64,000 nt of DNA, taken from contig NZ_JNAI01000009.1 in NCBI RefSeq assembly GCF_000759855.1, forward strand, positions 124,001 through 188,000. The letters are read 5' to 3'. Origin of the DNA: Prochlorococcus marinus str. MIT 9107 (GTDB lineage: Bacteria > Cyanobacteriota > Cyanobacteriia > PCC-6307 > Cyanobiaceae). The stretch's first letter is position 1, and each line of letters opens with the position of its first letter. The notes beneath the pieces were generated by a model that did no database searches, had not been told where the DNA came from, and saw only the letters and a program-made list of their open reading frames with translations. Positions 48,142 through 52,026 of this stretch are shown here, piece after piece. The translations under genes and the position numbers were made by a program.

Positions 48142-48932
48142 TGTTAAATGAATTTTGGTTTGAAGCAAAAAATATTAATTGTTTTAAGTGCGGTTTCAGA
48201 GTAATTAAAGATTTAAATTTAAAGATAGCATATTCAGAAAATGTAATATTAATTGGTCCAAATGGTTCAGGGAAATCATCCTTAATAGAAGTAATTAATA
48301 GAAATATATATCCAATAGCAGCTAATGAATCATTCATAAAAATTTTTGACGAAGAACTCATAAATTTATGGGAACTAAGAAAAAGAATTAGTACCGTAAA
48401 TAATGATATTAAAAATAGAATAAATCCAAATCTACGAGTTTTTGATTTAATTTTAAGTGGGCTATATGGAAAATATTGTTTTATATCAACTAAAACAGAA
48501 GAGGATAATTATAAAGTTCAATGTCTAATAAAAAATATGAATATATTAGATTTATCAAAAAAGATTTTTTCTAATTTATCAGATGGGGAAAAACAAATTG
48601 CTCTATTTGCCAGAGCGTTAATTAAAAAACCAGATATATTGATTTTAGATGAACCAATTGCAAATTTAGACTATAAATCAAAATTTCTTGTAATTGATAA
48701 AATTGATGAATTATCAAAATTAAATACTAAAATTTTTTGTGTAACACACGATATTTCAATGATTACTGAAATTTATGACAGAGTCATAATGCTAAAAGAT
48801 GGCGAGATATTCGCTGATGGGAATCAAGAGGAAGTTATAAATAGTGAGAATCTTAAAAATTTGTATGGTATCAATGTCGAAGTAATTAAAAATAATGGAT
48901 TTTGGATAATTAAAAAATTTTCTAAAAAATAA
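48141..48932 (+). CDS. ABC-type ATPase, orphan
   Basis: 263 aa. Walker A GPNGSGKSS (39-47), signature LSDGEKQ, Walker B DILILDEPIANLD, and switch His in VTHDISM. Length and the C-terminal pattern (IYDRVIMLKDGEIFADG) fit metal/iron-chelate type importers, but no permease gene adjoins. Start GTG 48141. Directly preceded by a 33-residue membrane peptide. Its 3' end overlaps the convergent zinc-ribbon gene by 11 bases. Confidence 0.8.
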   Translation: MLNEFWFEAKNINCFKCGFRVIKDLNLKIAYSENVILIGPNGSGKSSLIEVINRNIYPIAANESFIKIFDEELINLWELRKRISTVNNDIKNRINPNLRVFDLILSGLYGKYCFISTKTEEDNYKVQCLIKNMNILDLSKKIFSNLSDGEKQIALFARALIKKPDILILDEPIANLDYKSKFLVIDKIDELSKLNTKIFCVTHDISMITEIYDRVIMLKDGEIFADGNQEEVINSENLKNLYGINVEVIKNNGFWIIKKFSKK

Positions 48933-49122
48933 TTATCAATATAGCTACACAAATAACAATAAAAATGAATTTATTATTACTAAAAAATGTTAAAGGTTTG
49001 TTTCTAAATGAATTTCTAAATGAAGAAGAACCACATTTAGAGCAGACTATCTTGCCACCTAACGATCGATCTGAAACGAAGGAAGAACTTCCACAATTAA
49101 TACAAATTTTATTTACGCTCAT
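48922..49122 (-). CDS. Zinc-ribbon membrane protein
   Basis: 66 aa. Two CxxC knuckles, C7-x2-C10 and C27-x2-C30 in ICINCGSS and VCSKCGSS, form a zinc-ribbon-like site. A C-terminal helix (IFIVICVAILIIIF, 52-66) anchors it. A tail-anchored metal-binding protein, function unknown. It shares the region upstream with the Crp-like gene, which is divergent. Confidence 0.65.
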   Translation of the reverse strand: MSVNKICINCGSSSFVSDRSLGGKIVCSKCGSSSFRNSFRNKPLTFFSNNKFIFIVICVAILIIIF

Positions 49123-49200: not shown

Positions 49201-49215
49201 TTGATAATGAGAATC
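49201..49215. promoter_or_regulatory. Partial Fur-type site upstream of the Crp-like gene
   Basis: TTGATAATGAGAATC holds one good Fur half (GATAATGAGAATC). It sits 32 bases before the full box at 49246-49268 and is followed by the palindrome TGTTGCAACA (49216-49225). Possible second or distal Fur site. Confidence 0.4.
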
Positions 49216-49245
49216 TGTTGCAACAAGCAATTTAATAGTGCATAA

Positions 49246-49268
49246 TTGATAATAATTCTCATTATCAA
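49246..49268. promoter_or_regulatory. Fur box ahead of the Crp-like gene
   Basis: Perfect 8-base arms TTGATAAT (49246-49253) and ATTATCAA (49261-49268) around AATTCTC. The inner 19-mer agrees with the Fur consensus GATAATGATAATCATTATC at 16 of 19 positions. It ends 11 bases ahead of the start at 49280, so Fur would repress the gene while iron is present (inferred). Confidence 0.65.
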
Positions 49269-49279
49269 TCATTAAATAA

Positions 49280-49867
49280 ATGAATTTCCATACTTATGGA
49301 GAACCTCCTTCAAAATCAGTAAGAATAATAACTGGGCAATCCGTTTTAATAGATCCTTCATCAAGGCCAAAAGGCACATGCCTAGAAGTTGAAAGTGGTA
49401 TTGCAAGAGTATATTGCCCTTGTGAAGAAACTGAAGGCATGACACTTGCATTTTTACAATCAGGAGATCAATTAAGAACTGACCTTTTATGTAGTGAGGG
49501 TGTATGTGTTGAAGCCTTAACAGATTTGTCTTTTCATAGCAATGTAAATATTGATGAGAATATTGGCTACGATGCAGTAAATGAGTGGACTTTGCAACTC
49601 CTAAGAATTAGACACTTGGGTAATGCGGAACAAAGATTACAAGCTTTATTTTCAATCCTAGTAAATCGTTTAGGAAGAAGATGCGGTCAATGGTGTGAGC
49701 TACCTTTTAGGCTAACTCATGAAAGGATAGGCGAATTAATAGGTTCTACACGAGTAACCTCCACAAGGTTGATTTCTAAACTAAGGTCATCTGAGTTATT
49801 AATAGCACCAATTGGCACCCAAACAGTAAGTGTTGCCCCTTCTTTTATTGAAACTTCTCCATTATAG
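49280..49867 (+). CDS. Cys-rich Crp/Fnr-family transcription regulator
   Basis: 195 aa. A cyclic-nucleotide-fold N-terminal domain (about 15-90), a dimer helix (VNEWTLQLLRIRHL, 100-113) and a winged helix at about 145-172 (LTHERIGELIGSTRVTSTRL) that fits HTH_Crp. There are seven cysteines (34, 46, 48, 71, 76, 135, 139), including CPC and Cx4C, unusual for a Crp protein and consistent with metal or redox sensing. A Fur box lies 11 bases upstream. Identity of its regulon is unknown. Confidence 0.85.
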   Translation: MNFHTYGEPPSKSVRIITGQSVLIDPSSRPKGTCLEVESGIARVYCPCEETEGMTLAFLQSGDQLRTDLLCSEGVCVEALTDLSFHSNVNIDENIGYDAVNEWTLQLLRIRHLGNAEQRLQALFSILVNRLGRRCGQWCELPFRLTHERIGELIGSTRVTSTRLISKLRSSELLIAPIGTQTVSVAPSFIETSPL

Positions 49868-49871
49868 AAAC

Positions 49872-50165
49872 ATGAAGGAATCACAATCATTAACTAACAA
49901 CCTATTAATGGAAGTTGATGTATTAACTAATAGACTAAGAAATATAAAGCAATCTTATATAACTACGAACAATCAAGGATTAAAAGAAAGGCTATTCTCG
50001 GAAAATAAAAATATTTTCAAAAGAATTAATGAGATATTTACAGTAGCTGAGCAATTAAATAAAACAAGTAAATTTGAAAAATTTAGTTTTTCAAATTTGC
50101 TTATTGAAAAAACAAAAAGGGCATTGAATGAAAATAAGTTTGAAAGTAATTTATTTTTTCCTTAA
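49872..50165 (+). CDS. Conserved hypothetical protein, helical, 97 aa
   Basis: Start at ATG 49872, five bases after the Crp-like stop; a longer frame from 49830 would overlap that gene. A helical, Asn/Lys-rich protein (LLMEVDVLTNRLRNIKQSY, KRINEIFTVAEQLN) with no known domain. It overlaps the convergent ferritin gene by 15 bases. Probably co-transcribed with the regulator, so it may be iron-responsive. Function unknown. Confidence 0.6.
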   Translation: MKESQSLTNNLLMEVDVLTNRLRNIKQSYITTNNQGLKERLFSENKNIFKRINEIFTVAEQLNKTSKFEKFSFSNLLIEKTKRALNENKFESNLFFP

Positions 50166-50705
50166 ATCACTGTCAATCAATAAAATTGCAGAAGGTTGAT
50201 TAGACGCAAACTTAACTTTACCTAGTATGTTAGCAAATTCATCTTCTGATTTTGTTTGAGCCTCTACAACTGGATCCAGAAAAACGTTAGTTCTTGTATC
50301 GGAAAATCTTTCTGAAATGGAATAAAGTTGTTGCAGAGATGAAGTTAAATCAGCCTCCATGTTGAAAGAATAAGAAATCAAATCCTCAATTGAATCCCAT
50401 TTTTGAACTGGTGCTGGAAGCTCATTTAATTTTACGCTTTGCCCTCTAGCAATTAAGTAATCTGCAAATTTTTGAGCATGTTCCATTTCACCCTGTGATT
50501 CATTTAAAAAATAAGAAGCAAATCCATTTAAATCTCTCTCCTGAAACCAAAGGTATATTGAAAAATATTGCACATTAGCATATCTTTCCATTGTTAGATG
50601 TTCAAAAAAATTATCTAATAAGCTATCGTCCATCGGTTGGGCAATAGCTCTTCCGGATGGGCCAAAATTAATTAATTTCTGTGTTTTTAGATTATTTTCA
50701 TTCAT
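50151..50705 (-). CDS. ftn: Ferritin
   Basis: A 24-mer iron store. 184 aa with the four-helix ferroxidase pattern, including ERYANVQYFSIYLWFQE, then SQGEMEHAQKFADYLIARGQ and EAQTKSEDEFANILGKV (diiron Glu/His ligands in place). Closest layout is the bacterial non-haem ferritin. Its start is 86 bases from a Fur-type site at 50791-50809. Neighbours are the Crp-like operon and the iron-type ABC ATPase. Confidence 0.92.
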   Translation of the reverse strand: MNENNLKTQKLINFGPSGRAIAQPMDDSLLDNFFEHLTMERYANVQYFSIYLWFQERDLNGFASYFLNESQGEMEHAQKFADYLIARGQSVKLNELPAPVQKWDSIEDLISYSFNMEADLTSSLQQLYSISERFSDTRTNVFLDPVVEAQTKSEDEFANILGKVKFASNQPSAILLIDSDLRKK

Positions 50706-50790
50706 GATTACATTATTAAACTACATAAATTATACAACAATATGTATAAATTAGTAACTTATTAATCCTTAAATTTAAATAACTCAATAT

Positions 50791-50809
50791 GATAATGAAT
50801 ATCAATAGC
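50791..50809. promoter_or_regulatory. Fur-type box between ferritin and the hidden Cys-rich gene
   Basis: GATAATGAATATCAATAGC agrees with the 19-mer Fur consensus at 15 of 19 positions. It lies 11 bases ahead of the 40-residue gene at 50820 and 86 bases upstream of the divergent ferritin start. Either gene, or both, may be controlled. Confidence 0.5.
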
Positions 50810-50819
50810 AATATAATAA

Positions 50820-50942
50820 ATGAATCTAGAATATGATTTTTCAGAACTGCTCTTAACTAATAAAATATACTTAAGTAAAAAAAAGAAATGTAAAAAGAAA
50901 AAATGTTCAAAATGGAAAGGGGGAAATTGTAATTGCCTATAA
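50820..50942 (+). CDS. Hidden 40-residue Cys/Lys-rich protein
   Basis: ATG 50820 to TAA 50942. An N-terminal acidic-helical part (MNLEYDFSELLLTNKIY) leads to a basic, Cys-rich end with C24-x4-C29-x7-C37-x-C39 (KKKCKKKKCSKWK). Four cysteines and eight or more lysines in 40 residues look like a metal-binding peptide. A Fur-type site lies 11 bases before the start, and ferritin is divergent. Stop is 8 bases from the convergent FutC-like stop. No known family. Confidence 0.6.
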   Translation: MNLEYDFSELLLTNKIYLSKKKKCKKKKCSKWKGGNCNCL

Positions 50943-50949
50943 AAAAATC

Positions 50950-52026
50950 TTAAATATAAACCTTTTGTGCTCCTGGATATAAAAAATAATAACTATCTTT
51001 GTTAATAGAAAGAGAACATTTTTCACCACTATTTAGTTGATTATTAATATTAGTTCTAACCCTTAATATTTCCTCATTAATAGATACTTTATATATAAGA
51101 AATTCACCAAGAAATTCTTTAGATATTACAGTAGAATCGCCAGATTTAGATTTTTTAATAGATATAAATTTAGGAGCAATTGACATAATTTTGATATTTT
51201 TATTATTTGATAACCTTGAACTATTTATTTCACCTAAACAAGACATATATGAATTACCGTTTTTATGGAGATTAAGAATATTATTTCCTAAAATAAAACT
51301 ACTAACAAATATCGTCTTGGGATTATTTAGAAGATTTATTGGGGTATCAATTTGATGTATTTCACCTTCATTCATAACTGCAACTTTATCGCATATTGAC
51401 ATAGCTTCTTCAGGATCATGCGTAACCATTAATCCACTTGCATTGCAACTTCTAAGAATATTTGGAAGTTCGCTTCTCAATTTAAGTTTGACGTGCATAT
51501 CAAGACTACAAAAGGGTTCATCCAATAGAATAAAATTTGTGCCTGGAGCAAGAGCCCTTGCAATTGCGAGTCTTTGTTTTTGACCTCCAGACAATTCGTG
51601 TGGGTACCTTCCAACAAAGCTATCAAGACCTACAACATTTAATAAATAATCAACTCTAGATCTATTTTTTTTGTTTTTCAAACCAAACATTACATTTTCC
51701 AAAACAGTTAGGTGAGGGAAAAGTGCATAATCTTGAAAAACCATACCAATATTTCTTTTCTCAGGACTAAGGATTCTATTACTACTTGAGATTTCCTTAT
51801 CATTTAAAGTAATTTTTCCTTTAGAAGGATATTCGAAGCCTGCGATCAATCTCAAAAGTGTGGTCTTTCCGCAACCAGAAAGACCAAGTAAACCTAGTAA
51901 TTCGCCACTTTCAATTTTTAGGTTAATTTCATTTAATATCCAATTCGAATGTTCTTGCTTATCATATCTATGATGCAGATCATCAATTATTAAAGCATCA
52001 TTTTTCACAAAATACTTCTTATTCAA
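50950..52026 (-). CDS. futC: Iron(III)-type ABC importer ATPase (FutC-like)
   Basis: 358 aa. Walker A GLSGCGKTT (48-56), Q-loop MVFQDYALFP, signature LSGGQKQRLAIARAL, Walker B FILLDEPFCSLD and a C-terminal TOBE-like domain. This is the FbpC/FutC/PotA subgroup that powers iron or polyamine import. The ferritin and Fur context favours iron. The start is TTG 52026; no ATG precedes the Walker region, so the start is uncertain. Its permease and binding-protein genes are not here. Confidence 0.8.
   Translation of the reverse strand: MNKKYFVKNDALIIDDLHHRYDKQEHSNWILNEINLKIESGELLGLLGLSGCGKTTLLRLIAGFEYPSKGKITLNDKEISSSNRILSPEKRNIGMVFQDYALFPHLTVLENVMFGLKNKKNRSRVDYLLNVVGLDSFVGRYPHELSGGQKQRLAIARALAPGTNFILLDEPFCSLDMHVKLKLRSELPNILRSCNASGLMVTHDPEEAMSICDKVAVMNEGEIHQIDTPINLLNNPKTIFVSSFILGNNILNLHKNGNSYMSCLGEINSSRLSNNKNIKIMSIAPKFISIKKSKSGDSTVISKEFLGEFLIYKVSINEEILRVRTNINNQLNSGEKCSLSINKDSYYFLYPGAQKVYI

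Follow-up and report, generated by a model that had tools for sequence, protein, structure and literature searches.

In Synechococcus elongatus, the IdiB/idiA circuit ties a CRP-family regulator to idiA and to iron starvation. Cyanobacteria furthermore possess the metallothioneins BmtA/SmtA, which are small, cysteine-bearing, and metal-regulated. In Bacillus subtilis, the Fur-regulated proteins FbpA (54 aa), FbpB (48 aa), and FbpC (29 aa) are small and basic and have been postulated to be RNA chaperones, whereby the RNA binding itself is unconfirmed according to excerpts of one source (PMC8464778). The small [2Fe-2S] ferredoxin Bfd interacts with bacterioferritin, which is thought to promote reductive core release, and marine picocyanobacteria have a distinct ferritin class, SynFtn, which possibly serves in oxidative or general stress (both from passages of PMC7762939). 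Here, we describe a locus from Prochlorococcus marinus str. MIT 9107, in which a small protein of 40 aa is encoded divergently from a ferritin gene (Table 1). The window, i.e., the whole stretch of DNA that was analyzed, comprises 64,000 nucleotides of a genome of 1.70 Mb in 13 contigs. The gene names idiA, piuC, znu, and clpP were read from the sequences, unless they were named by Pfam.

Table 1. Features of the 40-aa gene and its surroundings; positions refer to the window, unless residues or another locus are named.
Feature	Position	Strand	Remarks
40-aa Cys4/Lys-rich protein MNLEYDFSELLLTNKIYLSKKKKCKKKKCSKWKGGNCNCL	50820..50942	+	ATG to TAA, 123 nt
Core KKKKCKKKKCSKWKGGNCNC of the 40-aa protein	residues 20-39		
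Fur-type box TGATAATGAATATCA	50790..50804	.	7-1-7 pattern TGATAATNATTATCA, 13/14
-10-like element TATGAT	50788..50793	+	overlapped by the Fur-type box; 79/79 loci; putative promoter element
CRP-spaced palindrome ATACA-N6-TGTAT (block 1)	50732..50747	.	strict in 75/79 loci
CRP-family regulator	49280..49867	+	Pfam Crp + HTH_Crp_2; conserved synteny
Fur-type box TGATAATAATTCTCA	49247..49261	.	18 bases 5' of the CRP-family regulator
Ferritin, divergent	50151..50705	-	Pfam PF00210, E 1.1e-26
ABC transporter ATPase, convergent	50950..52026	-	family models
74-75-aa protein copies	L189 2273-2500; L235 4560-4784; L236 4026-4250		

The easily missed frame of 41 codons and its cysteine spacing, C24-x4-C29-x7-C37-x-C39, are both as an earlier sequence-only reading had described them. 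An in-frame TAA is located directly 5' of the ATG, so that the frame cannot begin further upstream. Strong matches to the protein were found in 33 of 36 genomes of the same genus, the three misses being genomes that are 84, 83, and 58% complete (G001, G016, and G032). A search with the ferritin gave 162 relatives, and 80 loci were kept (78 titled Prochlorococcus and 2 Synechococcaceae). In 78 of these the 40-aa frame lies divergent from ferritin, and the remaining two (L048 and L077) stop at a contig edge on the peptide side. All 79 copies, including that of the window, have 123 nt and a TAA stop, whereby the ATG giving 40 aa was chosen for copies with several possible ATGs. The dN/dS ratio calculated according to Nei-Gojobori from 70 distinct sequences is 0.25 overall, with 0.72 for residues 1-19 versus 0.028 for residues 20-40. 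The copies differ from the majority sequence by 89 distinct single-site variants, which comprise 39 synonymous ones, 49 that replace a residue, and one stop, the latter being a stop only in the majority context while every copy is open; 2000 position-randomised nulls gave a mean of 20.6 synonymous variants, and none of them reached the observed 39. The sequence-only reading had staked the gene on its fate in related genomes, and there the frame and the cysteines are kept and evolution is non-neutral. A chance ORF is ruled out by selection, constant length, and conserved synteny, and it is as good as certain that the frame encodes a real protein; to the existence of the gene and the selection on its core the alignment itself attests.

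Two other origins of the conserved stretch were rejected. A structured RNA instead of a peptide found no backing, as there was no Rfam match at 50000-51300 and the transcript structure is ordinary, folding no better than shuffles (z 1.22), results that do not bear on a trans sRNA. For a phage origin, no match was obtained in annotated phages, PHROG, or IMG/VR, where a scan with one peptide pattern gave 10 stretches, none of which was confirmed. A separate observation concerns the codons at 50862-50939. From residue 15 on, two-fold-degenerate codons vary far less than those of the ferritin genes at these loci (the minor codon has a mean frequency of 0.013 in 17 columns versus 0.083 in 50 columns; Mann-Whitney p 0.0015), and AAG codons interrupt long A runs in this stretch. 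Slippage avoidance or a constraint at the RNA level are possible reasons for the low variability.

The core follows the consensus KKxCKKxKCS[NKA]WKGGxCxC. In 18 diverse members, residues K20, K22, C24, K25, K28, C29, S30, W32, K33, G34, G35, C37, and C39 (window numbering) are invariant, and the N-termini vary in length and sequence. Changes at such positions are rare, with K33 altered in 2 and G35 in 1 of the 79 copies and K33 replaced by Q in L238, whereas K31 and N36 are each unique to the copy of the window among the 79. A profile of the protein matched 280 of the 400 family genomes and 49 of 59 genera. With completeness of at least 90% and contamination of no more than 5% required, 205 of 251 family genomes had a match. 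At least two of the 280 peptide matches (G062 and G250) contain a stop. A class-wide draw of 388 genomes gave 57 matches, 56 of them in the family of the window and one weak match elsewhere (E 0.003). Judged by these searches, which reached class level, the protein appears to be a genuine picocyanobacteria-specific microprotein. NCBIfam, Pfam, and PHROG contained no family match above cut-off, and the profile of the protein matched no PDB sequence at E<=5; the sole Pfam match, RNF180_C (E 0.027, below cut-off), was dismissed as composition. In the literature searched, none of the motif strings CSNWKGG, CSKWKGG, and KKCKKKKCS occurred, and no description of the protein was found in it, including the accessible parts of PMC4788461, PMC3475125, and PMC7170224. 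A description may sit in the supplementary tables of the MED4 array study of Steglich 2008, which according to excerpts (PMC2518516) contain 113 new MED4 ORFs. With neither a family above cut-off, nor a PDB sequence, nor a motif text match in the literature searched, the protein can still be called possibly undescribed, as had been suggested at the outset.

Upstream of the frame, the 19-mer GATAATGAATATCAATAGC at 50791-50809 matches GATAATGATAATCATTATC, which we take to be the Fur consensus, at 15 of 19 positions. This match had been noted before, together with a spacing of 11 bases to the ATG that has to be corrected to 10. Alignment of the control region of 79 loci revealed two conserved blocks between ferritin and peptide. 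Block 2, TGATAATGAA[AT]ATCA, stays within two mismatches of the 7-1-7 Fur-type pattern in 79/79 loci, and in 78 of them the box begins at position -30 relative to the ATG. A box that overlaps the putative promoter, as it would be expected for a member of the Fur regulon, is therewith present, whereby a Zur box would look alike. Sites as good as this one (13/14) amount to seven listed in the 1.70-Mb genome, or ~2.5e-4 per 60-bp stretch. Three of them lie inside long ORFs and are therefore probably due to chance. Of the other four, one each precedes a 94-aa ORF, the CRP-family gene, and the 40-aa frame, and the fourth is found between the znuA-like and znuC-like genes. At up to three mismatches, the pattern is not commoner in the genome than its reversed control (549 vs. 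581), and therefore weight was placed on sites with at most one mismatch or on conserved ones. The upstream regions of flavodoxin and fur, read by eye, had no obvious box. In loci of other genera where ferritin adjoins the peptide, a box within four mismatches is present in 11 of 13 (within three in 8), and, relative to the first Cys of the motif, these 11 boxes are located at -105 to -120; at L142 and L153, with ferritin adjoining, no box within four mismatches was found. Where ferritin does not adjoin, a box within four mismatches occurs in 2 of 7 loci, both at other positions, and within three in none. The genome encodes two FUR-type proteins, one of them beside the znu-like genes, and the znuA-like/znuC-like intergenic box, TGATAATCATTTTCA, closely resembles that of the peptide. 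Fur and Zur boxes are indistinguishable here by sequence alone, so that we infer Fur rather than Zur control from the context.

Block 1 is a CRP-spaced palindrome that lies 58 bp from the Fur-type box in 78/79 loci. If TATGAT is the -10 element, transcription would start near 50800 and the palindrome would be centred near -61, which we take to be the classical class I CRP position. ATACA-N6-TGTAT occurs four times in the whole genome versus 0 for the reversed control, and 81 versus 16 times over 24 genomes. The four genomic copies are located before the peptide gene, between the idiA-like and piuC-like genes, overlapping a clpP-like gene, and among small ORFs; the copy within the clpP-like gene means that not every copy is regulatory. 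The idiA/piuC palindrome is strict in 10, has one mismatch in 5, and two mismatches in 1 of the 16 same-genus genomes with a piuC match (the window's own included), whereby genome G015 of the same genus has no piuC match. Two g62 genomes carry a strict or one-mismatch palindrome at a different offset from piuC. The CRP-family regulator encoded past the ferritin would be the candidate activator of the peptide promoter. Within 49202-49261, a second Fur-like stretch, TGATAATGAGAATC, begins at 49202, ~45 bases upstream of the strict box of this regulator, which suggests tandem boxes. Divergent from the regulator gene, a 66-aa protein is encoded at 48922-49122 (minus strand), which has a zinc-ribbon-like N-terminus (C-x2-C-x16-C-x2-C) and a hydrophobic tail and whose Pfam matches are all below cut-off.

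The assignment of the divergent neighbor as ferritin was borne out by Pfam (Table 1). The ATPase had been called FutC-like and convergent. It is indeed a convergent ABC ATPase, but the family models do not single out one substrate: NCBIfam ranks phosphonate, sugar, polyamine, and ferric ATPases highest, each of them below cut-off. A context sample of 20 loci from other genera and paralogue sites showed the order CRP-family gene, ferritin, peptide in 13 loci, by which the synteny with ferritin seen in 78/80 ferritin loci extends to other genera. In four loci (L138, L141, L143, and L145) a CRP paralogue adjoins the peptide, and three of these also have a porin; no Fur-type box was found at the four, and ferritin lies ~4 kb off in the genomes of L141 and L143. 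The remaining three loci harbor 28-aa paralogues with neither ferritin nor CRP gene. In L235 and L236 from genus g28, which we read as marine Synechococcus, the order is ferritin, idiA, piuC, 74-aa protein, SLH porin, peptide, and CRP paralogue; porin and 2OG-Fe(II) oxygenase were named by Pfam in the related locus L141. The conserved 74-75-aa protein between the piuC-like and porin genes, found in the genome of the window and in g28, looks secreted. Across the 400 family genomes, both peptide and ferritin were found in 263, the peptide only in 17, a ferritin match only in 17, and neither in 103, a count that ignores phylogeny and assembly gaps and is based on a ferritin search (E <= 1e-20) that also takes in ferritin paralogues. 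Fisher's test on the genomes outside the genus plus three same-genus genomes with neither gave p 3e-49, again ignoring phylogeny. Among the matches listed, 39 genomes of other genera have peptide and ferritin on one contig, whereby 30 have them at most 500 bp apart, 5 at ~4-5 kb, and 4 far apart (G115, G145, G230, and G062, with a stop in the peptide match of G062); also among the matches listed, 6 more genomes have them on different contigs. In genus g79, ferritin has no adjoining peptide (gap ~126 bp, L233), and a 28-aa copy is located elsewhere, with residue 31 being A in this short form.

The iron-responsive control that the sequence-only reading had proposed thus receives support from the footprinted Fur-type box on the -10-like element, the palindrome shared with idiA/piuC, and the iron-gene clusters elsewhere, and induction of the 40-aa gene at low iron is very likely. 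The conserved control sites and the iron-gene context can be seen directly in the genomes compared, and from them we infer the direction of regulation and the binding of the CRP-family protein. When iron is plentiful, Fur would occupy the box overlapping the -10 element and thereby keep the gene off. When iron falls, Fur would depart, and the CRP-family regulator, itself behind a Fur-type box, would then be made, bind ATACA-N6-TGTAT, and activate the promoter. The four cysteines of the protein might hold one metal ion (Fe2+ or Zn2+), which would order the SNWKGG turn, and the lysine arm could dock on a partner of acidic charge, for which the co-inherited ferritin is the best candidate, whereby the docked protein would help to remove iron from ferritin or hand it on. 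A metal site is likely, and a metal-binding or iron-delivery peptide, as originally suggested, is plausible in view of the four conserved cysteines. Ferritin is a tentative choice of partner, made because of linkage, co-occurrence, and charge: it carries -10 per subunit and ranks second in acidity among the 57 long ORFs of the window (11 further ferritins lie between -4 and -15), and the 40-aa protein has a net charge of +8, with +10 in the 21 residues of the core. AlphaFold2, at low confidence (mean pLDDT 63.5), predicted a helix of residues 3-26 and a Cys region without order. In passages of PMC7762939, picocyanobacterial SynFtn is tied not to iron homeostasis but to oxidative or general stress, which counts against the reading given above. 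Excerpts of a field study (PMC9723758) report some Synechococcus ferritin transcripts to be more abundant when iron is low and others when it is high, and excerpts of PMC12274634 report that iron limitation raises idiA, afuB, and afuC in two Synechococcus strains, which fits the context of the 40-aa gene without bearing on the gene itself. Overall, we assign a probability of roughly 0.36 to a low-iron microprotein that is Fur-repressed, CRP-activated, metal-binding, and ferritin-docking.

It could also be that the protein is an RNA-binding, iron-sparing factor, i.e., that a basic peptide with a metal knuckle aids small RNAs or RNases acting on mRNAs of iron-rich proteins. By analogy, a role in RNA binding of the kind proposed for FbpA/B/C might be nearly as likely as the ferritin reading, as the protein is likewise small, basic, and located behind a Fur-type box. 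Furthermore, paralogues of 26-28 aa (L154, L156, L157, L232, L234, L238, and L239) consist of the core alone, and the 28-aa paralogues imply that the Lys/Cys core can exist by itself without ferritin nearby. Those at L154, L156, and L157 are set in unrelated surroundings with neither a ferritin nor a CRP-family neighbor and without a Fur-type box within three mismatches; a PD-(D/E)XK nuclease and an amidohydrolase (Pfam) are among the neighbors of L154 and L156. However, RNA binding does not predict the linkage to ferritin and iron-uptake genes and is unconfirmed for the Fbp proteins themselves, and to our knowledge Fbp proteins have not been described as having conserved cysteines, which also counts against it, so that we regard this explanation as doubtful.

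A metallothionein-like buffer or carrier, which would hold Fe2+, Zn2+, or Cu+ in the cytosol under metal stress with no specific partner, could account for the four conserved cysteines and the metal-type control sites, and the up-regulation of SynFtn by copper (excerpts of PMC7762939) would be in line with it. We nevertheless consider it improbable, since the cysteines are only four, the conserved W, S, GG, and lysines would be left unexplained, and the metallothionein gene bmtA of WH8102 has Zur boxes (excerpts of PMC9337993). Still less probable is a role as a small co-regulator acting on Fur or on the CRP-family regulator, whereby the Cys site would read iron and tune DNA binding: a CRP-family gene adjoins the peptide or sits just past ferritin in 17 of 20 loci, but the L154, L156, and L157 paralogues have no such neighbor among the ORFs matching window proteins. 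Zur control, with a zinc box and a protein that takes part in zinc homeostasis, would suit the two FUR-type proteins and the very similar znuA-like/znuC-like box, but is highly improbable in view of the palindrome common to idiA-like/piuC-like genes, the linkage to ferritin, idiA, piuC, and porin, and the same box type at the CRP-family gene of the same cluster.

Prochlorococcus and marine Synechococcus contribute a large share of ocean photosynthesis and are iron-limited across wide regions. A ferritin-docking, iron-responsive microprotein would bear on how picocyanobacteria recover iron from ferritin and how they run an iron response with few regulators. The 40-aa gene, which is conserved but easy to overlook and has an iron-type promoter that is itself strongly conserved, is a concrete test object for both questions. 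It could also serve as a field marker of iron stress, and together with idiA/piuC it constitutes a candidate CRP-family regulon. In comparison with the known systems, the IdiB/idiA circuit likewise links a CRP-family regulator to idiA, a likeness by family and context only. With BmtA/SmtA, the protein shares small size, cysteines, and metal-type regulation, but it is polybasic, has only four cysteines, presumably far fewer than BmtA/SmtA, and lacks a Pfam or NCBIfam match above cut-off. FbpA/FbpB/FbpC, which act with the sRNA FsrA, are likewise very small (<60 aa), strongly basic, and behind a Fur-type box, whereas the 40-aa protein has four conserved cysteines and a ferritin/idiA linkage; here, the likeness is one of description only. 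Bfd is likewise a small Cys4 protein beside a ferritin-type cage and is expressed separately from the cage. However, it is larger, carries a [2Fe-2S] cluster, and works with heme-containing bacterioferritin, whereas the 40-aa protein has polylysine and the spacing C-x4-C-x7-C-x-C, which we take to differ from that of Bfd, gave no Pfam Fer2_BFD match, and would have a partner ferritin that is presumably heme-free. Bfd is thus a functional model for the protein and not a relative. That it represents a new ferritin partner, of ~40 residues, heme-independent, controlled by Fur and CRP, unrelated to Bfd in sequence, and docking electrostatically to mobilise iron in starvation, is unlikely when all parts are taken together. 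Fur-controlled small basic proteins are already known, and it is the Cys4 core that we rate as new.
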